Of a stretch of 64,000 nt of DNA, positions 1 through 30,480 are shown piece after piece (position 1 is the first letter of the stretch; each line of letters starts with the position of its first letter). Position numbers and translations under genes: made by a program. The notes under the pieces were generated by a model that was given only the letters and a program-made list of their open reading frames with translations, was not told where the DNA came from and made no database searches. This DNA is from Halichondria panicea (taxonomy: Eukaryota; Porifera; Demospongiae; Suberitida; Halichondriidae): the NCBI RefSeq assembly GCF_963675165.1, contig NC_087382.1:2271567-2335566 (forward strand), written 5' to 3'.

Positions 1-1290
1 ATTGTGTGTTGGACATATGCATGGCGACAACGATCTGTTGTTCATCAATCATGGAACAGTGCAAAGCTAAAACCTGCCGCAGTGTTTAAAATAATCGCTG
101 CCGTTGTATTTATACTCGGTGGATTAGAACTTCTGGTGCTGAGTTTCTTCTATAGAGCTGTGTTGTCACTACTCCTCCTTGTCATCGCCCTGTGGCCATA
201 CTGTACGCATTTGAATTCAAAACATTTCAAACTTTGTCTGTTGTGGAGTTGTGCTTGTGTCTCAGTTGCCGTGTTTCCACTTTTGCCCGTTGTTGGCAGA
301 AATGCTAATTATTATCTCGTAGCTTTCGCCGGAAGTATTGCCACAATATTCGTTTTCATTTTATTCCGTTTCCCCGAGATCAAGTTCAATCTCTGTTCAC
401 CAATCAACAGAATGCCTAAGGCACATCATCTGTTCAGTTTGCAAACTGTTTTACTGGCTGTTGCATCGTTCATGCCTCTCATCACTAACTGGTATTTCTC
501 ACAGAAAGAGTCTATCCCAACAATTATAAATATGTTCAGCTGGTTTAATTTACTGTTTGCGATAGTAGCTCCAAACTTTGGCCCTAAGAGTTTAGTCGGT
601 CGACTACTACACATTGCTCTGACATTCTTCACTGTATTTATTTTGCTAAGCACGACATTTGAAGCAATTTTCCTTCTATTGCTCTCGTGTTTGTTGTACT
701 TGTGGTTGTTAATGGAAGATTTACTTGCCTCAAAGGAATGTAAAAGTTCAATTTGGAATTGTCTCGTTTCCCACACTTTTACAAAAGTAGTAACTCTTGT
801 ACCAGCCGAGAGAGAGCCTGTTATAGAAGTGCTATCTATTGACGATCTGCGGAGAGTGTATTTTGCAATATTTTTCGGTATACTATCGTTTTTCGGACTT
901 GGGAATGTTGCAAGTATAAACACGTTTGACCCGTCTACTGTGTATTGTTTTCTAACTGTGTTTTCACCCTTCGTGATGGGGGCTCTGATCCTCTGGAAGA
1001 TGGTGATACCATTCATCTTCGTTAGTTGTGTGTTCAACTCTGTACTGAGTGTTTTGAATCGTTCTCTCCTCACCTGTCTGCTGATCATCTTAGTCATGTC
1101 CGATGTGATGGGATTGAATTTTTTCTTTCTCGTCAAAGATTTTGGGAGTTGGTTGGACATTGGAGTCAGTATTAGTCATTATGTGATTATTATGGTCATG
1201 AGTATTGGTATCGTTGTCCTGGTCGGCGTTGCTAGGTTACTAACAGGCGTGACTGTACTGCCTAGAAAGAACGAAGATCATCTTTGTTAG
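1..1290 (+). CDS. multi-pass membrane protein, 3' part (5' end outside window)
   Basis: The frame is open from the first base to the TAG at 1288-1290, with no in-frame ATG before about 411, so the start lies upstream of the window or in an earlier exon. About 428 residues are visible. The product is very hydrophobic: I count roughly nine to eleven stretches of about 20 apolar residues, separated by short loops rich in Lys, Arg and Asn. One longer polar loop lies near residues 240-280 (nt 720-840). I recognise no catalytic motif, repeat or transporter signature. No introns interrupt it, unlike most genes further along. It is probably an integral plasma- or organelle-membrane protein of unknown function. 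The antisense frame at 426-1160 is a shadow of this hydrophobic sequence. Confidence 0.6.
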   Translation: MVCWTYAWRQRSVVHQSWNSAKLKPAAVFKIIAAVVFILGGLELLVLSFFYRAVLSLLLLVIALWPYCTHLNSKHFKLCLLWSCACVSVAVFPLLPVVGRNANYYLVAFAGSIATIFVFILFRFPEIKFNLCSPINRMPKAHHLFSLQTVLLAVASFMPLITNWYFSQKESIPTIINMFSWFNLLFAIVAPNFGPKSLVGRLLHIALTFFTVFILLSTTFEAIFLLLLSCLLYLWLLMEDLLASKECKSSIWNCLVSHTFTKVVTLVPAEREPVIEVLSIDDLRRVYFAIFFGILSFFGLGNVASINTFDPSTVYCFLTVFSPFVMGALILWKMVIPFIFVSCVFNSVLSVLNRSLLTCLLIILVMSDVMGLNFFFLVKDFGSWLDIGVSISHYVIIMVMSIGIVVLVGVARLLTGVTVLPRKNEDHLC

Positions 1291-1956: not shown

Positions 1957-2208
1957 TGATATTCTTTGATGAAGGGTTGTCTTGCATCGGCCATAATTAT
2001 GCCTTCAGGTGTAAAGTCAATCTCAGCACCTCGGAGATCGTAAAAGTACTGCTCGTGATCATGCAAGATTCGTAGGTGATGCTTGCATGCATGCATTTCA
2101 AATTTAAAGAAATGAGCAAGATCGGAACTCTTTAGGTCTTTTTGTTCAGTTCCCTCCCCCCTCGATTATTAGGTCAATCTCTTCCTCAATCTCTTCTTCA
2201 ATACTCCT
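1957..2208 (-). pseudogene. inverted partial copy of the VioB-like gene
   Basis: Read on the minus strand, this segment matches the 3' part of the VioB-like exon (about 7897-8157). It covers the end of the ferritin-like domain, including the tracts 'cgagcagtacttttacgatc' and 'gccgatgcaagacaaccc'. It carries a 4-bp insertion where the parent has GGCATATGGCC, plus substitutions, so the frame is broken. A short piece at 1910-1928 repeats part of it in the opposite direction, making a small foldback. It lies about 170 bp upstream of the parent gene's predicted first exon. Confidence 0.8.
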
Positions 2209-2380
2209 CAATCATCAATTTTATTTTTATTTTTTTGCCTGCCACTCTCAGCTCTGGTCTGTCTGTATTGCATATTGGGGATTGAAAGTCCATGAAACAG
2301 GTGTGGCCTTACGTGAGGAATTGCACATGCGCACACATTCACTGTAGCTAGGCCGGCCACAGCTAGGTACTCCGACCATC

Positions 2381-5300
2381 ATGAAGACCAGCACTCACTG
2401 GCTCTGTTTATTCTTTTTCTGGTAAGTTATTATATCAATACCTAGACTAGATACTAGATCTACTACTGAGTGTTCTCTCAGTCGTAATTCTCCTATAATT
2501 ATAGATCTACACCTCCATGCAATAGATTTAGCAAGTTGCTCACCATCATCTATTTTGCTTATGTGAGTTTTTTAGTACAAGGGAAGGGGTACATTGTATA
2601 TAATCATAGGCAGTATCTCTCTGAGTTCAATAATTGGCTCAGGGACTGTACCGTATAGCAGGTAATTTTCGGGGGACAAAATATTCGTGGTTCAGCAATA
2701 TTGAGACATTTCGTGGGTAATATTTTCGTGATTGGAGCTTCAACCACGAAAACCACGAATATTTTGCCCCACGAAAATTACCTGCTATACGGTATATAGA
2801 TTATGCTAGTTTTTAGCGTAATAAGGTGCCACATTATAATAATTACACTGGTAAGGTGGCCGTATTAGGAGGTTGGAAAAGCTGTTTTTTTTATCTCCAA
2901 TTAGAAGGCGACCCTCTAAAGACAAGCCATCCAGCCTCAAAACTAATTTTCCAACCTCCTAATACAGCCACCTTTACCAGCGTAATTATTTTAATGTGGC
3001 GCCTTAAAAAAGCTTATACGGTAGGCACTTTCTTGGGGTGAGAATTATGCTGGCGTAATGAAAACCTTTATATAGAGAAAAATAGACAGGCGTTGGAAAC
3101 ACACGTCTGTCAGTAGTATCATATATGGGTAATTTCATCTCCTTGACATATACCGTATAGCGGGTTATTTTCGTATTGGTGATATATTTCGTATTGTAGA
3201 GCATCATAGAACTACGAAATTATTCTACTGCAATAGGTTCAACGTCACTATCCTGAGCTGTACGACTCTATGAAATATTTAAATGGGTAGTTCATACGAA
3301 ATTTCCACCACCGAAAATTACCCGCTATATGATACCATAATTATTAACTATAGTGCAAACATGCATGTGCATATTTTTGTAATTTTCACATCACATGTGC
3401 ATGCACGTGGCCAATATTGTTATACTTGTGTGACATCATATGCAAAGATGGTATGTTGTGCTCGTGGAATACACACTGCATGCATGAGGAATAATGGGGC
3501 AATTTGAAAATAATAATAATAAGTTATTGACACTTTATTGAGTAATCTACCCAAGGCCTATAACTCAGGAATCTGGAAGCTTACCTAATTGCTGTGAAGT
3601 AGACACTAATTACAATGACATTCCGTTTGAAATCGATATGCCACGGCTGACTATAACCGGTAATTAGATACTGTTTTGGTGCAGCAATTCTAGGTATTAC
3701 AGTGCTTTTATGCATCTTTGCAACAAGCCGTATCACATAGTAAACCACAAATAGTAAACATGCAAACCACAGGCTGCTACAGGCCACACTGGTGTATCAT
3801 CCTCCACCTCATGTCCTTACTGTAAGCCTTAGATCTTAAATTTATTGAACACATCCTTTAAGCAGCTCATCAACAAGACAACATCACTATTTCTCAAATT
3901 CCAAATTTCCCTCCTTTAATAATAAGGTCAAGTACAGCCTGTACCCTGTGGTTTGTATTTGTGGTTTACAATGCGATACCAGCTTGTTGCAAAGGTGCAT
4001 AAAAGCACTGTATTTGGAAGTGTTGTTCATTTCACATTAGTCTCTACAGTGGCGTAGCCAGGGGGTGGCAAAGGAGGCAATTGCCCCCCCCCTTTTTTCT
4101 GGATCTCTACTACCAGTCTCAGCTCTAGATAGCTACATTCTTTGTGTCTCTATTAGTAATTATTGAATTAACAGTTACACGCATGTGCAAACAAAATAAT
4201 ACAGGTGGGGGGCATTGCAGAATGCTTCTCTGTGTGGGTGTGATTGCATGCTCCTCTGTGTGGGTGTGATTGCATGCTCACATTTGGCCACAAGTGTGCA
4301 ATATTGGGTCCATGTGGCATAACCAAGAATCACATTCACAATGTCTCAAACTCTGGATAAATTCTTTAAGCCACAGAAGCTAACTCTCAATCAAGGTATA
4401 TCCAACTTTCTTATAGTGACAATAACTATATCTATGCTAGCCTCCACTGAAATTATTTTGCTGATGACAGGAAGTGAAATTTAACCACAACTAATTAAAA
4501 AAGGGTGTGGCTTCCGTCCAAAAATTTTCTGGCCTAGCGGCTTTGCCCAGCTAGGTGTTTGCCCCCTCTTTCTGGCTATGCTTCTGCTCTACACAAGGGT
4601 ATCGAAACTATCCGCTTTACAGTGGAACCTCCCATAACGGACCCCTCCCACCAGAGGAGAACCTTCTATACAAGACGTTAGCTATGGCACGGATTGAAAT
4701 CACTATAATAATTATAAGTACACAAAAGCAGCCTCCCACGAGCGCACCTTCTTGATTCAGGACAGCTCCCAACTGACCAACTGTGCAAAACTGCCTCTTA
4801 TTACGGAAAACCATAAAACCACACCCACATTTATATCTTAATGTATTGCTAATCATACTGGCATACTATTGGCCAGAGTACTTCTCAGAAGATTTCTTTG
4901 AGCATCAGCTTGTAAGCCTCAATTGAAACGCGGATGTATATTATTCGAGGGTATAATTATATACAATCGCTCTCTTTCCTGGGTAGACTATGTAGTATGC
5001 ATGTAGTGCGCCATGCATGTGTAATAGTCACTGTATAATAAACTTGAGGGAGTGTATAATTATATATAGTGTTGGGACTGGCAGCGAAGGCAAGTCCCTC
5101 ATCATTGTTGTGCTTAAATTGTACAGGTTTGAACTTGCAAGTGCATCCTTCTTAGAAAAACCAAGGATTAACTTTTCTGGTCGATTTAGAGCAGATGTGT
5201 CCACACTGAACAATGGACCAACAAACTATGAGAAAGTCATGGAAGGAGAAGAAATTGTGGTGAAAAAATTTAACCCAGGAGGAACAAATACTTTCACAAT

Positions 5301-8300
5301 GATAGACTGCAGAGTCACTTCTGTAGTACTAGAAAATGGCTTGGCTATTGAAGACGAAATCATTGGTGAATTAATTGTGATTAATCCCGAGTCCTCTCTT
5401 CCAAAATTAATTACCCTTGATCCAGATCAACAAGATACTTCCAGTATTTACGGGATGAAGTTGGGTGTGAATTGGAGTATGCTAAGCAATAATGCTTTTA
5501 TTGGAGATTTTGTTCTTGCCATGCTCGAACGTGATTCCTGGTTTCGTCAAGCCAACTCCACAGATCCAGATAAGTACTGTGTTGACAAAAAAATCCAATG
5601 CTTAGCAGCCCACAGTGTTTCAAAACTTGTCAATGTTCAATGGTCGAAACAGTTGACTTCCAATGCTCTCAGATCTTTGAAAGAACACACACACAAGGAC
5701 AAGGAAGATGGATACACTCTTTCAATTATGTTAACGCTGTATAACTACAATAGGATGCCAGAAGAGCCTTGGTTTCTATATGGCAGCATAGTTGGCAGTA
5801 TCGGCATTTCGTCAGCTGGTGAGTCATTATCATTTCCCGAGAACAGAGTTATGAAGGCCATTAATAATATCCCTGTACCTGTTCCATCTTGGAGCCCGCT
5901 GTGTGCACTCATTAGTAATTTCACTACTACCACCTACTTTGATGTGTTTGGGTCAACCTTGGCAATTGATTTTAGCAACTCCATACCGATCGATACCAAC
6001 GGAGAACTTTGTCACCTCTACCGACTATTTGTATGTATTCTTGTGGATGATCAAGTTACTGTTGAACTTGTTGGTGAGCTTCCTTACATGGAAAAAGATT
6101 GGTACAAAATGACATCGGGCATTCAAGATTTTGAACTTACTGATCAGCAATTGAAATTTGTTCAAAAACGGAAAGTTATTGCAGTGTTTTTCAAGGCAAA
6201 GCCTGTTGAAAATACTTTGAAGCAAGGTGATCGATACCCAGTCTGTGACAATAACACTTTGTCCACTTCAAACTGTGTTTATATTATTCTCAGCGAGGAT
6301 CCGTACTTAGTAGCCCCAATGGACCATACGAATTACAGGCTCGAAAAAGGAGACTCTGCTGAAGCTAGACTAAAAGTGAGACACTACGGCGTTCAGCCGA
6401 GTGAGAAGCTCTCCCTATCCCTCTGTGACGTTAGCCCCAATGGCGATGCTACAAACTCGGACCTTAAATATACCCGCACACAGACAACCGGTAAAGATGG
6501 TATTGCCATATTTTATTTCGTAGCAGGTGATGTTGGAACTCCAAGAAAATATATTGACGGCCAGGTCTTTATATTCAACTACTGTGTTTGTGAGCAATGT
6601 GAGAAGATGAATTGTCAGCAGTGTTCAGTAAATGTAGGAAACACATTGTCATTCCTTGTGTGGAGTCATATGAAATACAAGAGACCGTATTTCTGGGACA
6701 CGCATGTAAAGCCAATCTTTTTTCAGTACCAGAAATTGTACCCAGTAATGAATAGTATTCTGAAACTCGGCGATTATGAAGCTGTAACAAAACCACGAAA
6801 TATCGATATGATTCTTTTCACAATGTCTATGGATATCAACCACCCAAGCTACATGCCAGCGTCTAGAGATCTCTCACCTACAAAAAAAGAAATGATCATA
6901 GAATGGTTGAGAACTGAAGACCACCCTCTAAATTGGGATACTCTGATTGAGAAGGAATATGAAATACCAAGTTTCTGCAATAGATCCTATTTATTTTATC
7001 GCGAGAAGCTGAGAAAGGAACTGGTGACAGAGAAATCACTCTCTTGGATCAAGAATTTCCCTAAAAATGAGTATGTAGCCATACTTTTGGATGGTTTAGG
7101 AGAAGATTCACTGCCAACGCTTGCAGAATCAGAGATAGCGCAATCCTTTTCTAAAGTTTCCACGGTCATAGAACAATCACATACCCAAACTCTCAAAGAA
7201 TGGAAAAATGATTTGTTCATTAGACGTACTATTGATGTGTTAAAAAATCGAGATCACTTAACAGATTCGTATATTGAAGCTCTGCTTTCTATGGTTCTAA
7301 AACTATCTAATGACGATAGCAATTCTCTTCCTAGTTGGTACACAAGCTCCCACTGCTCAAAAAGACAGCTAAAAGAAAATTTACAAATAGCTCTACAATT
7401 AGAATTTTCCACCATTCCTCCATACTTAACTGCTCTCTACTCTATCAAGGACGGGTACAATCAAGAGGCATACGAAATCATACGCTCAGTTGTAATGCAA
7501 GAAATGCTTCACATGGCACAAGCGGCCAATCTGCTCATTGCTATCGGTGGACGGCCAATAATAGACAGTGCACAGGTTGCCCCATCTTACCCCGGGAAGA
7601 TACCGGGAGGAGTGTTACCTGGTCTCAATGTAACACTACAGAAAGCATCTCCCAAGTATATTGCTGACGTGTTCATGATGATAGAATTCCCAAATGAATT
7701 GGTTTACGAAGACTCTTTTTCTAACAAAGAGAAAGAAATTAAGTCTCATGTGCTTACAATTGGAAAGTTTTATAAGAACATTCAACAGTGTATGATTGAA
7801 CTGTATGAAAAAGAAGGAGAAAATTTCTTTGACAAAGAAGCCAAGCAAATGACCTGGCCTTGGACAGCGCATGAAGATGGTATTAAGCTCGTAACTGTGA
7901 GCAGTATTGAAGAAGCCATTGACGCCATTAACGTGATAATTGAGGAGGGAGAGGGAACTGAACAAAAAGACCCTACTTATTTAAAGAGTTCCGATCTTGC
8001 TCATTTCTTTAAATTTGAAATGCTTGCATGCAAGCATCACCTACGAATCTTGCATGATCACGAGCAGTACTTTTACGATCTCCGAGGTGCTGAGATTGAG
8101 TTTACACCTGAAGGCATATGGCCGATGCAAGACAACCCGTCATCAAAGAATATCCCAAAAAATTCTCATTTATACCATGAAGCAAAAATATTTCACGACG
8201 TGTATCGATCTCTATTAAGGTCACTTCAAGCAGCCTTCAATGGACAACCAGATGCTATTAAAGAATCCGTTCCTCTTATGTCAAGCATGCAAATCCAAGC

Positions 8301-8394
8301 TAAGAAGCTGATGGCCATGGAAATGCCTTCTTCCCTACCTGGGCAGCCTAAGCAAACTTGTGGACCTATTTTTGACTATGATTGGCAGATATAA
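2381..8394 (+). CDS. secreted VioB/chromopyrrolate-synthase-like protein with ferritin-like domain
   Basis: Model: exon 1 at 2381-2421, exon 2 at 5127-8394, total 1102 aa. Exon 1 is a 41-nt signal-peptide start (MKTSTHWLCLFFF) ending in a GTAAGT donor in phase 2. Exon 2 begins after 'ttgtacag' and joins in frame, giving a hydrophobic core followed by a plausible cleavage site near ASA-S. The text after it, LEKPRINFSGRFRADVS, resembles the N-terminus of bacterial VioB/RebD/StaD-type iminophenyl-pyruvate dimer synthases. At nt 7375-7540 there is a ferritin-like helix pair with QLEFSTIPPYLTALYSI and QEMLHMAQAANLLIAIGG, and a later LAHFFKFEML (nt about 7996), which are candidate metal-binding helices. 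In bacteria these enzymes couple oxidised tryptophan (imine) units on the way to violacein or indolocarbazoles. The length is close to VioB (about 1000 aa). The exon 2 frame is also open upstream to 5017, but that part reads like intron. The substrate here is unknown; the family call is strong, the secretion call moderate. Confidence 0.75.
2649..2795. mobile_element. palindromic MITE in VioB-like intron
   Basis: Inverted termini CCGTATAGCAGGTAATTTTCG, flanked by TA on both sides, give a near-perfect 145-bp hairpin with inner 'aatattcgtggtt' arms. Relatives lie at 3151-3336, 11668-11845, 22083-22290, 25259-25466 and 32916-33070. The TA flanks suggest a Tc1/mariner-type non-autonomous element; the family is inferred. 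Confidence 0.8.
2820..3010. mobile_element. palindromic MITE with about 60-bp inverted arms
   Basis: The left arm 'ggtgccacattataataatt' through 'aggaggttggaaaa' is repeated inverted as 'ttttccaacctcct' through 'ttttaatgtggcgcc'. The loop is about 60 bp. No coding capacity. It lies in the intron of the VioB-like gene. Confidence 0.8.
3151..3336. mobile_element. MITE of the CCGTATAGCGGGT family
   Basis: It has inverted ends 'accgtatagcgggttatttt' and 'aaaattacccgctatat', with an inner block 'ttctactgcaataggttcaa' also found in the copy at 11668-11845. Confidence 0.7.
4047..4582. mobile_element. hAT-like element remnant with transposase N-terminal exon
   Basis: The left end CAGTGGCGTAGCCAGG is typical of hAT-type termini, and the right end 'ctggctatgcttctg' is a degenerate inverse. 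Inside, at about 4340-4396, a short open exon reads MSQTLDKFFKPQKLTLNQ and ends in a possible GTATAT donor. That opening is common in hAT/TTF-finger transposase-derived proteins. The rest of the transposase is absent, so this is an internally deleted copy in the intron of the VioB-like gene. Confidence 0.5.
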
Positions 8395-13550: not shown

Positions 13551-16350
13551 TAGCCATAACTCGAGAAAGAAGCTTTAATGCTAAATCCACAAATCAAAAT
13601 CCAAAAGAACGTGGCTAAAAGCCTATAGAAGCTTTTAGTTTTCGTCGCATTGCAACTGTTGAGCATGCAGTTACAGCTGGAACAGACACACAGACACACA
13701 CACACACAGTCAGCTTTACCGTATCCCTTGTGCGGCTACGCTTCGAGGCATAATTATACAAGTTATTGTCCACATCAGCATTTCAATACACAGCCAAAAA
13801 TCCACGGGCCGTTTCATGCCTGTTACGGGCCCGTTACAGGTATAAATCCACGCGGTGTATTCAACTGTTTGGTTAGATACTGTTTAGCAGCCTGTGGATT
13901 TCAGCATGTAATCAGCCGTGGAACGGGCTGTAAGCAGCCTGAGCACGGCCTGTAAGCAGCGCTATGTTCTCAGTTAGTTCCGGTTTGCTTTTATACAGTT
14001 AAAAGCTGAGTTTGGCATGAATAATTCAACGAAGTGTTAAAATTTTTAAGAAACAAACATAGCCAGACAGTTCGACAGTTTACAACACTAATAGGAATGT
14101 TTCTTCTAGTGCTTGTGCTGCTCGAGTGTGTCACTGTGTGTATAAAGAAGACACGTGAATAATGGTTGGAAAGAAAATAATGTTTCTTACATTTATAAAT
14201 TTTCTGTTTGACTGTTTGTACTACCAGCCATGTCCTCTGTCACAATGTGTGTATAAAGAAGACATGTGAATATCGTTGCAAAGAAAATAATGTTTCTTAC
14301 CAATATAATGTGTTGTTCGACTGTTCGTACTGTCCACAGACCAGCCATGTCCTCTGTCACTGTGTATATAGTGAATATCGTTGCAAAGAAAATAATGTTT
14401 CTTACCAATATAATGTGTTGTTCGACTGTTCGTACTGTCCACAGACCAGCCATGTCCTCTGTCACTGTGTATATAGTGAATATCGTTGCAAAGAAAATAA
14501 TGTTTCTTACCAATATAATGTGTTGTTCGACTGTTCGTACTGTCCACAGACCAGCCATGTCCTCTGTCACTGTGTATATAGTGAATATCGTTGCAAAGAA
14601 AATAATGTTTCTTACCAATATAATGTGTTGTTTGACTGTTCGTACTGTCCACAGACCAGCCATGTCCTCTGTCACTGTGTATATAGTGAATATGGTTGCA
14701 AAGAAAATAATGTTTCTTACCATTATACATTTTTTGTTTGACTGTTTGTACTGTCACAGACCAGCCATGTCCACAGCCAGTAACTTAACTAAAGCAAAAC
14801 ACAAACAAAGTTTTTATAATTATTATGAATGATTGCTTACCTGCCAAATTCTGATAGTTCCTAAAGTATAGGTGTGTCCACGATGCTGTAATTAGACCAA
14901 CCAATGTAAACGACAATAATTATTATTGTAAAATACCTTCTGGTCATGATGGGTTGAAATCATTGATGGCATGAGCATTCCAATTTATATATGTACATCT
15001 GTATGTGTGCATCAGTACACGAGTTTAAAGTGAGTTAAATAATTATTAATTGGCTCACATTCTCAAGTAGTGTGACAAGGAACCTCAATCTCGAGCTCAA
15101 TCAGTACAGTAATGATGACATAGACACAGGTACATCTGTGTGTGCATACATACGTAAACGAGTTCGAGTAAGTGAGTCAATAATAGAACCTGAATCTCGA
15201 GCTCGTAAAGTAATGATGACACAATATCATAGGTATACATTTTATATACCTCGTACTCACTTATATAGTAGTCGTTGTAGAGGTCCTTTTTAGATGTGTA
15301 TTCCTATACATAAGCAGCATATTGACCAACATTTTAAAAACCAGCTGAGCACTCACTTATATTAAACGTTGTAGAAGAAGTCAACAACCTGCGTCAGAGG
15401 CAACCAGATCTGCAATACGAAATAACTCCGTCAACATAATTATTTATACATTACCACATAAGCACACCTTGTAGCCTATAGAGCTAGACTCCTAGAGACA
15501 GTGAAAGAAGAATTGCAGAGACATCTAGCAGCTGACAAATGGACAGAAGTGAGTATTAATTAGACCTACTATACTAGCTCCTTATTTAGACTCTACTTAC
15601 TTCCTCTCTCTCTCTTTTCTTGCTAGCTGGCCTTGGCAGTCAGCTCCATAAATAATATAATTACTCCATCCATCCTTTAAAGCTGCAACTGAACGAGAAC
15701 ATCAAACTGAAGCACCTTTTCAGTCTCTTGGTGGATTTTGTAGCTAAGCAACTTTCTCTCTGCGCATGCGCATACACTGGCTGCACAGGCTGTAAGCAGG
15801 ACGTGGGTGGTACAGGCTGAAACAGGCCCGTTATTTACGGTCCGTATTCAGGACAGGATGTACGTGCTGTAACAGGCCTGTGGTTCCAGGATGTAAGCGG
15901 GCCGTGGGCGATTACATCCGCATACAGGCCCGTATTCCGGCCTGTATTCAACTGATTTTCCCCACGGGCCTGAAACAGGCCTGTGGATTTTTGGCTGTGT
16001 ATGCCAGGGAGATAATGATAAATGCGCTAACCACATTTTTCTAGTTGCTATATATGATACAGATGGCACTTACTGCCTTGACAACCACACGTTCGAATAA
16101 CGGCCGCGGATAATTTTTTTACTAAAACTGCTGCTAAAAATGTTATTATGCCTCGAGGCGTAGCCGCACGAGGGATACGGTAAAGCTGACTGTGTGTGTG
16201 TTTGTGTGTCTGTGTGTCTGTTCCAGCTGTAACTGCTCAACGGTTGCAATGCGACGAAAACTAACAGCTTCTATAGGCTTCTAGCCACGTTCTCTTGGAT
16301 TTTGATTCGTGGATTAGCAAACTAAAGCTTCTTTCTCGAGTTATGGCTAG
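13551..16350. mobile_element. 2.8-kb composite element with long inverted repeats
   Basis: The terminal arms (13551-13752 and 16141-16350) are about 200-bp inverted copies. They contain 'gccataactcgagaaagaag', a short CA/GT tract and 'cttgtgcggctacgcttcgaggca'. An inner pair of arms (13777-13965 and about 15787-16000) is rich in 'acaggcctgt/acgggccc' palindromes. Between them sit the 105-bp tandem array and A/T-rich sequence. A short coding-like piece at about 15490-15545 (LETVKEELQRHLAADKWTE, followed by GTGAGT) may be a captured exon, but I cannot support it as a gene. Confidence 0.65.
14225..14770. repeat. tandem repeat, 105-bp unit, about five copies
   Basis: 'ccagccatgtcctctgtcac' recurs at 14342, 14447, 14552, 14657 and 14762, an exact 105-bp period, with more diverged copies at the left edge. 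As 105 is divisible by three and the unit lacks stops in several frames, open frames of about 180 codons run through it on both strands. These are artefacts of the period, not genes. Confidence 0.9.
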
Positions 16351-22370: not shown

Positions 22371-23540
22371 ATGCATAGGTGTGTGTGTGTGCATGTGTGT
22401 GTGTGTGTGTGTGCGTGATTCACTTACTTTCTGATGGCAACGTTGGGCTCAGGAAGTTGTTACAACGATCAACAGAGGAGCAACAAGAAACGATCTTTGA
22501 TTCACTATATGCAGAGCAGTTGATAAACCTTTCATCCACGCAGCCCCACACTCGCGAGTTACCCAATCGATTCAGTTCCACATAGCAACGCTTCCCGAGG
22601 CAATATCCAGGGTGTCCATTTAATGGAACTCCTTCAATTCTATTCTCACACTCTATCACTGTATATAATAATGGAGAGGAAGAAACCATATCACAACAAA
22701 CTCCAAAGAGATATACCCACTGTAAGACAGGAAACTGAGCATATGCCTAAGCATAATACGCATTGTACATCCACCAAGTGATACAAGTTTCAATTAAGTA
22801 AGCTACAAAACAAATATAAAATGCTTACTTAACGAGCTTTCAATTATTACATAAACACAAACATACAATTGCCATCTGTTGTGATGCTTGCAGTGGCAGC
22901 AATTACTTCATTGGTTGTGGACGAGACGTATTCTTCAGTGGTAGAGTCTTCATTAGTAGACTGTGAAATGATTGTCGGTGAAGTTGTTGCGGCAGTTTCA
23001 TTTGTTGTTGCAATGGTCGTTAGTTTATTTGTTGATGCCATGGCTGTTGGTTCATTTGTTGATGCAATGGTTGTTGGTACGTTTGTTGGTACTGTGGGTT
23101 CACTGGGTTCACTGGGTAGACGAGGGAATAGTTGAGTGTTGCAGTTTGCTTCACTAATGCAGCATTGTACAACATTCGTGCTCGTATCTCGCTGTCCACT
23201 GCAAGATTCTCTCCAGTGAGGGTTGGCGTTCTTGTTCAAACAGTAGTAATTTGTAATTGGTTCGTTTGATAGGTAATCTAATCCACGTTCTGCAACACAC
23301 AAGTCATCACAGCAAGTGGTGCTAAATATTGAAAAAGTCGACTTGCAGCACACTGCAGCAAAGAAAACACATTAGATATTTATTATTAACAACTCTACTG
23401 ATATGATAAAATACGTGAATCAAGGTAGCTAGTGTGCGTGTTACTTGTAGGATACTAGGCAATACCAACTCACCAGCTTGAGTAGCTGACGGTAGAGATG
23501 TGAGAAATATCAACAGCAACAAAAGACAGCCACTCCACAT
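21480..23540 (-). CDS. gene D: kinase-less transmembrane protein with two three-finger (activin-receptor/Ly6-like) domains
   Basis: Four exons: 23474-23540, 22867-23352, 22428-22658, 21480-21799 (367 aa). All three introns are phase 1. Exon 1 encodes the signal peptide (MWSGCLLLLLIFLTSLPSA). Exon 2 carries a Cys-rich domain with CCDDLC, YYCLN and QCCISEANCN, followed by a Ser/Thr-rich mucin-like stalk with repeated 'STNEP/L' blocks. Exon 3 carries a second Cys-rich domain with GYCLGKRCYVELN, WGCVDERFINC and SCCSSVDRCNN; the closing CC-x4-CN pattern is typical of TGF-beta/activin receptor ectodomains and Ly6 proteins. Exon 4 has a stalk, a single TM segment and a short tail with PESSSDVMTSS. 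There is no kinase or death domain. The architecture resembles BAMBI-like pseudoreceptors, but the ligand is unknown. Expected as a type I plasma-membrane protein. Confidence 0.75.
22083..22290. mobile_element. MITE of the CCGTATAGCGGGT family, within gene D intron 3
   Basis: Ends 'accgtatagcgggtaagttt' and 'acgaaaattacccgctatat'; inner arms 'ggtaaaaaattcg' and 'cgaatattttacc'. The right end runs directly into the GT microsatellite. Confidence 0.75.
22286..22414. repeat. (GT)n microsatellite next to gene D exon 3 donor
   Basis: About 60 GT units with a few interruptions ('gcatgcatag'). On the minus strand this is a CA repeat starting about 13 bases inside intron 3, directly after GTAAGTGAATCAC. 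The paralogous intron of gene B has a CA repeat in the same place. Confidence 0.9.
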
Positions 23541-29360: not shown

Positions 29361-30480
29361 TGTGTGTGTGTGTGTGTGTGCGATCATAATTCACTTACTT
29401 TCTGACGGAAACATTGGGCTCAGGAAGTTGTTACAACGATTAAAAGAGGAGCAACAAGAAACGACCTTCGATTCACTATAAGCAGAGCAGTTGATAAACC
29501 TTTCATCCACGCAGCCCCACACTCGTGAGTTACCCAATCGATTCAGTTCCACATAGCAACGCTTCCCGAGGCAATATCCAGGGTGTCCATTTAATGGAAC
29601 TCCTTCAAATCTCTTCTCACACTCTATCACTGTATGGAGAGAAAGAAACCATATCACAACAAATACAAAGAGATATACCCACTGTAAGACAGGAAACTGA
29701 GCATATGCCTAAGTATAATACGCATTGTACATCCACCAAGTGATACAAGTTTCAAGTAAGCTAGTATAAAATGCTTAACGAGCTTTCAATTATCACATAA
29801 ACACAAACATACAATTGCCCTCTGCTGTGGTGCTTGCAGTGGCAGCATCATTGGTTGTGGACGAGACGTATTCTTCAGTGGTAGAGTCTTCATTAGTAGA
29901 CTGTGAAATGACTGTCGGTGAAGTTGTTGCGGCAGTTTCATTTGTTGTTGCAATGGTCGTTAGTTCATTTGTTGATGCCATGGCTATTGGTTCATTTGTT
30001 GATGCAATGGTTGTTGGTACGTTTGTTGGTACTGTGGGTTCACTGGGTTCACTGGGTAGACGAGGGAATAGTTGAGTGTTGCAGTTTGCTTCACTAATAC
30101 AGCATTGTACAACATTCGTGCTCGTATCTCGCTGTCCACTGCAAGATTCTCTCCAGTGAGGGTTGGCGTTCTTGTTCAAACAGTAGTAATTTGTAATTGG
30201 TTCGTTTGATAGGTAATCTAATCCACGTTCTGCAACACACAAGTCATCACAGCAAGTGGTGCTAAATATTGAAAAAGTCGACTTGCAGCACACTGCAGCA
30301 AAGAAAACACATTAGATATTTATTATTAACAACTCTACTGATATGATAAAATACGTGAATCAAGGTAGCTAGTGTGTATGTTACTTGTAGGATACTAGGC
30401 AATACCAACTCACCAGCTTGAGTAGCTGACGGTAGAGATGTGAGAAATATCAACAGCAACGAAAGACAGCCACTCCACAT
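26789..30480 (-). CDS. gene B: kinase-less transmembrane protein with two three-finger (activin-receptor/Ly6-like) domains
   Basis: Four exons: 30414-30480, 29813-30292, 29399-29629, 26789-27105 (364 aa), all joined in phase 1. Signal peptide MWSGCLSLLLIFLTSLPSA. First Cys-rich domain with CCDDLCVAERGLDYL and QCCISEANCN, then a Thr/Ser-rich stalk with 'STNEP' repeats. Second Cys-rich domain with CLGKRCYVELN, WGCVDERFINC and SCCSSFNRCNN. The final exon has one TM segment (FILLIVLVIVAVLLLIGIA) and a tail with PESPSDVLSSLGSSAADLDT. It is the close paralogue of gene D; exons 1-3 are almost identical, while the TM/tail exon has diverged. Intron 3 is 2.3 kb and holds a minisatellite and unidentified repeat-like sequence. 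Probably a cell-surface receptor or decoy; ligand unknown. Confidence 0.72.
27180..27320. repeat. 27-bp minisatellite, about five copies
   Basis: Unit 'gtaagtgtggacccccc' plus 'ctgtgtaact'. As 27 is divisible by three, it gives open repeats in several frames. These are not genes. Confidence 0.9.
29325..29381. repeat. (GT)n microsatellite next to gene B exon 3 donor
   Basis: About 28 GT units with one G interruption. On the transcribed strand it is a CA repeat beginning about 18 bases after the exon 3 donor, as in gene D. Confidence 0.9.

Follow-up and report, generated by a model that had tools for sequence, protein, structure and literature searches.

The window analysed here is a 64-kb stretch of the genome of the sponge Halichondria panicea (C6:2271567-2335566), near the start of which lies a gene for a protein with a VioB-like N-terminal domain and a ferritin-like domain. 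Listing the open reading frames of the window gives one of 1132 open codons at 4996-8394 on the forward strand; joining 2381-2421 to 5127-8394, in phase 2, produces instead a single frame of 1102 residues that starts MKTSTHWLCLFFFWFELASASFLEKPRINFSGRF. The donor of this predicted junction is CTG|GTAAGT and the acceptor TTGTACAG|G. Residues are numbered from codon 5128, precursor numbers being 14 higher. The features of the locus are as follows:

1..1290, + strand: C-terminal portion of the neighbouring gene, PIG-N, which is an ordinary eukaryotic one (PF04987, E=6.1e-81)
1958..2210, - strand: reversed and frame-disrupted piece of this gene's 3' part, corresponding to 7898-8154 (264 aligned columns at 88% identity, with indels)
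2381..2421, + strand: predicted exon 1 (41 nt), encoding signal peptide MKTSTHWLCLFFFW, whose final codon is divided by the intron in phase 2; sole strict candidate upstream, with a same-donor homologous exon in four other copies and a candidate in the copy on C1
2422..5126, + strand: predicted intron of 2705 nt, GTAAGT...TTGTACAG, its acceptor position common to all eight copies
2645..2800, unstranded: inverted-repeat element within the intron, abundant in the genome (by its sequence and at least 155 genomic matches)
5127..8394, + strand: exon 2, the enzyme body, 1088 codons and a stop (open reading frame, joined frame and eight full-length genomic copies)
5128..6876, + strand: VioB-like N-terminal domain, residues 1-583, aligning to a separate bacterial 'hypothetical protein' gene
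6877..7380, + strand: expanded interdomain linker, from length comparison with single-chain bacterial rows
7381..8025, + strand: ferritin-like domain PF12902, residues 752-966 (Pfam profile), containing six invariant residues (E759, E792, H795, E853, E942 and H959)

When candidates for the first exon were required to have a GTAAGT or GTGAGT donor in phase 2, an early K or R and a hydrophobic stretch, the exon at 2381 was the only one in the 3126 nt upstream of the body (2001-5126), and at least one candidate appeared in just four of 113 segments of equal length elsewhere in the window. Allowing any GT as donor yields eight candidates upstream against a mean of 5.1, at which point the test is powerless. 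Comparison of the paralogues described below is better evidence for the intron than this chance test confined to the window. It also disposes of the possibility that translation starts, without splicing, at the ATG at 5017, which is in frame; this was rejected because in four copies (C11a, C11b, C3a and C3b) the stretch from the preceding stop to the body has no ATG. In-frame GC3 is 0.391, 0.256 and 0.389 in three sub-stretches; the GC3 of PIG-N is 0.419.

Searching the whole genome (131,455,214 bases in 39 contigs) revealed eight full-length copies on five contigs, namely that in the window on C6, pairs on C14, C11 and C3, and one on C1; a PF12902 profile search recovered the same eight, all above the cut-off. 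Every copy has both domains within a single open frame, and the corresponding position of each has an AG|G acceptor, upstream of which the frame closes after 1-57 codons. Five copies have a first exon with the donor CTG|GTAAGT, encoding MKTSTHWLCLFFFW in the window and MKTSTPWLYLFIIW, MKTSTHWWLCLFICW, MKVFYLSCCLCLW and MKVLYLSCCLYFW elsewhere. The candidate on C1, MHKFQWVQLLVLLW, has the donor ATG|GTAGGT; C3b has one with the donor ATG|GTGAGC, but the homologous stretch of C3a contains a stop at the junction, so that a first exon in the C3 pair is at most tentative. The introns are 122 nt in C11a, 145 nt in C11b, 626 nt in C14a, 686 nt in C14b and 748 nt in C1. Nei-Gojobori dN/dS ratios were between 0.16 and 0.33 in the six of 28 pairs of copies for which they were computed, so that the proteins are maintained by purifying selection. 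A spliced family of eight genes is thus almost certainly real. The sequence-only reading had described a body of about 1090 codons in one exon and, spliced to it in phase 2, an exon of 41 nt for a signal peptide, and both the joined frame and the splice sites of the paralogues agree with it; it took the gene, rightly predicted as such, to be a single one, when it is one member of the family. The 2.7-kb intron, in which it reported MITEs, contains the inverted-repeat element listed above, the count of at least 155 matches having been obtained by scoring 40 of 1608 first-look candidates.

The reversed fragment at 1958-2210 lies just upstream of exon 1, and its middle is nearly identical to the gene; of the copies, the one in the window is its nearest match, at 88% as against 84% for C14a and C14b. 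Further fragments of the family are found at C6:4427061-4427198 and C6:4465929-4466322, one of them with an internal stop.

The head of the precursor is charged and then hydrophobic, ending ASA|SFLEKPR. Cleavage at ASA|S, a site judged by eye, would leave SFLEKPR, the counterpart of the (M)S-[YF]-L-x-x-x-R at the start of the bacterial proteins. As judged from the sequences, a spliced exon with a signal peptide at the N terminus is clear in five of the eight copies, a candidate in C1 and tentative in the C3 pair. The animal copies have 15-21 cysteines each, compared with 1-12 in 11 bacterial relatives in which both domains also form one chain. Nine of these cysteines (259, 295, 373, 383, 491, 499, 617, 888 and 968) are found in 8/8 animal copies and 0/11 of the single-chain bacterial rows, these two groups being the ones compared; such additions would fit disulfide bonds in a secreted protein. 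That the protein is secreted, as had been proposed from its separate signal-peptide exon, is probable, given that this exon is joined across an intron shared by the paralogues and that the cysteines have been added. The presence of an added export signal on most of the eight copies suggests that an enzyme of bacteria was adopted by the animal and became a secreted one.

The match of the window protein to PF12902 (E=1.8e-55; 188.6 bits against a gathering score of 22.3) upholds the earlier assignment of the ferritin-like domain. The closest solved structure by sequence, 3hl1 ('Ferritin like protein'), matches residues 748-842 (E=3.5e-8), which cover only part of that domain. The six invariant residues of the domain are identical in all eight animal copies, 11 single-chain rows, 24 two-gene rows and four VioB rows, and may be metal ligands, as the ferritin-like fold would imply. 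The animal protein retains 63 of 73 conserved columns in the C-terminal part and 74 of 105 in the N-terminal part. The residue following E759 is histidine in 77 of 89 bacterial rows, phenylalanine in all animal copies and leucine in the four VioB rows.

Amongst plasmids, six records match 80% or more of the query with an identity of 27-30%; in each of them the match spans two annotated genes, a 'hypothetical protein' and a 'ferritin-like protein'. A scan of bacterial genomes, which favours proteins having the N-terminal domain since its search patterns were derived from that domain, gave 125 relatives, of which 80 were kept; these and five plasmid loci make up a set of 85. Both parts lie in one frame at 11 of them (L006, L008, L010, L011, L012, L014, L018, L019, L020, L021 and L023), whilst most of the others have two genes and a few have one part alone. 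The single-chain proteins share with the animal copies the two domains in one chain, the six candidate ligands and a common grouping in the trees; they differ in the nine cysteines already mentioned and in a linker of 43-66 residues, as opposed to 118-174 in the animal. The two-gene pairs of the six plasmid records align with both parts along the length of the animal protein; two-gene members are separate genes, stand apart in the tree and in some cases adjoin ebo genes. No relatives were found in viral contigs or phages.

At least two ebo gene families, defined by our own clustering and named from the annotation of locus L003, are found at 21 of the 85 loci, two of which (L008 and L018) are of the single-chain kind. 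No partner gene common to the single-chain loci emerged when Pfam was run on 19 of their 79 listed neighbours and one neighbour from a two-gene locus; three further PF12902 genes were found in the same scan. At L008:5135-7680 and L014:2334-4800, in two different phyla, a second PF12902 gene (encoding 521 and 523 aa) lies near the single-chain gene and is followed by a related gene with no Pfam match. The protein families and literature searched assign no function to the bacterial relatives, and hence the animal copies could help to define that of the family. Transport of metabolites across membranes is the role proposed for the ebo cluster (PMC6282210), and a prenyltransferase of the EboC type is described in another study as farnesylating quinolines (PMC9235831); together these may point, loosely, to aromatic small molecules.

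Trees were built for the two parts of the protein, excluding hits that covered fewer than 250 (C-terminal) or 450 (N-terminal) query residues, and for both parts together. In the C-terminal tree the animal protein groups with 10 of the 11 single-chain rows (SH-aLRT 87), L021 falling outside, and in the N-terminal tree it belongs to a set of 14 rows comprising all 11 and two others (SH-aLRT 99). With both parts, in 82 rows, the grouping of animal and single-chain proteins has a support of 98 once rows lacking either part are left out. In 47 of these rows, for which every second of the 70 two-gene rows was kept and bootstraps were run, the support is 100/98 for the animal protein with all 11, and 91/93 for L021 as its nearest relative. 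A further tree contains the eight animal copies, four VioB sequences, 11 single-chain rows and 24 of the 70 two-gene rows. Here the animal copies form a clade (100/99) on a long stem of 1.32, two-gene rows stand apart at 84/95, and VioB is set apart at 100/100, the inner branch that leads to it measuring 5.7 changes per column (drawn as 3.87 and 1.85). A single fork, in which the tree gives no firm order, joins L021, the ten remaining single-chain rows, the two-gene rows and the animal clade; the single-chain rows can group without the animal (70/78), placing it beside them rather than nested amongst them as in the preceding tree. Where the sequence-only reading looked to a tree with bacterial homologues, the animal copies do group with bacterial proteins, but with the single-chain ones and away from VioB. 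These results are therefore best fitted by one acquisition of a single-chain gene before the duplications. A fusion of two adjacent genes within the animal lineage was also considered and dropped, because the bacterial single chains already exist and the animal protein groups with them. The protein belongs to an uncharacterised bacterial VioB-like family, grouping with its rarer single-chain members.

Horizontal acquisition, as originally suggested, is still the best reading because the family was otherwise found here solely in bacteria, in collections that hold no eukaryotes. An origin in bacteria by this route is likely; the trees single out neither a donor nor one exact place for the animal clade, and a eukaryotic intermediate may have been involved. 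The gene might instead be an old eukaryotic one inherited vertically, or have come from a fungus or protist and not directly from bacteria. Fungal genes with PF12902 are reported beside lodA/lodB-like genes (PMC4417212), a described parallel to the domain's presence in the sponge. The animal branch is also long, and the host genome is the only eukaryote sampled; hence transfer within eukaryotes or older descent keeps a minor but appreciable share of the probability. That all relatives found are bacterial argues weakly against it, the collections being what they are. No host-encoded VioB-like gene of a sponge was found in the literature among the matches listed. A term search showed no mention of ferritin, VioB or PF12902 in the main text of a 2016 study that deals with genes of prokaryotic type in Amphimedon (PMC4784904), and the 'VioB' passages seen in PMC9131926 concern viobactin.

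As to function, a metal-dependent oxidase is the moderately favoured candidate, from the retained ligands and domain. A secreted protein devoid of catalysis, serving in binding, iron handling or structure, is unlikely by comparison. It would account for the phenylalanine replacing the common histidine beside E759 in every copy and for the expanded linker, but not readily for the retention of all six candidate ligands and of most conserved columns of the C-terminal part, and the four VioB rows themselves have leucine at the position in question.

VioB, the iminophenyl-pyruvate dimer synthase of TIGR04492, couples two tryptophan-derived imines, and is not known to have an added secretion exon. 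It has the same domain layout and candidate ligands as the animal protein, to which it shows a weak local similarity of 40 bits, and these resemblances would be expected were the gene a true bisindole synthase of the VioB/RebD/StaD type within a pathway of the host. However, the window protein scores 16.4 bits on the VioB model, for which the curated cut-off is 1250, whilst the genuine VioB genes that turned up in four of five bacterial genomes reach 1702-1856; for ten of the bacterial single-chain proteins the range is 9-54. Together with the depth of the split in the tree, this led us to reject VioB proper, and a host bisindole synthase of this kind is very improbable. The label given to the protein at the outset therefore needs amending, to a VioB-like protein with PF12902 that is not VioB. 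RebD and StaD were sought in four genomes and not found. When 298 genomes of one order were searched with the VioB profile, a single sequence, L118, gave a weak match (114 bits over the C-terminal part); it may be RebD-like. Queries for a presumed VioA, the absence of which also speaks against a bisindole pathway, and for a partial LodA/GoxA gave no match in the host genome, neither search having a positive control; the query for EboE, the one ebo gene sought, gave none either, though it works in all three control genomes. The host has 40 matches to amino-oxidase domains, none within 1 Mb of any copy. PF01593 amino-oxidase genes form clusters at C7:3694772-3722328, C10:1525360-1529549 and C16:5192884-5200007, several being full length in one open frame, and are possibly another intron-poor acquired family.

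Bacterial contamination or misassembly, which the long intronless body of bacterial type might bring to mind, can be dismissed, the sequence-only reading having already argued against contamination, in view of eight copies on five contigs (the largest of 18 Mb), their common acceptor, the adjoining PIG-N gene and the host repeat in the intron.

The explanation that we favour as a whole, with reasonable though far from complete confidence, is a family of secreted, probably disulfide-bonded, single-chain VioB-like/PF12902 paralogues of bacterial origin. An ancestor would have acquired, once, a bacterial gene that was already single-chain, and a short signal-peptide exon would have been added before the old start through a phase-2 intron, with cleavage of the signal restoring a start like that of the bacterial proteins. 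Duplication would then have dispersed the gene across the genome. The product is probably active extracellularly or within the secretory path. There it would be a metal-dependent oxidase of small molecules, possibly aromatic ones derived from amino acids, like VioB in bacteria; that it couples tryptophan-type substrates oxidatively is speculative and rather unlikely. A bolder proposal, which we consider slightly more doubtful again, is that the animal built eight secreted oxidative-coupling enzymes from one captured VioB-like gene for defensive aromatic or indole compounds of its own outside the cell, a chemistry usually credited to symbionts.

The named relatives of these eight conserved and apparently secreted animal proteins are enzymes of bacterial natural-product synthesis, and the host origin of some of the aromatic or indole chemistry of sponges thus becomes directly testable. 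The family would also illustrate one way in which an enzyme from bacteria is refitted for secretion, with a signal-peptide exon placed where the protein once began and conserved cysteines added.

Elsewhere in the window, eight further open reading frames were scanned with Pfam: one is tyrosine-kinase-like (5.2e-23), one has an Ig match below the cut-off and six have no match. Kinase and Ig-type genes of this sort agree with an animal host, as PIG-N does with a eukaryotic one. On the reverse strand, two nearly identical frames about 7 kb apart (22847-23371 and 29793-30311), the first of which has no Pfam match, suggest a recent duplication. The repeated stretch at 14193-14832, where several frames are open on both strands, is probably a minisatellite and not a gene.
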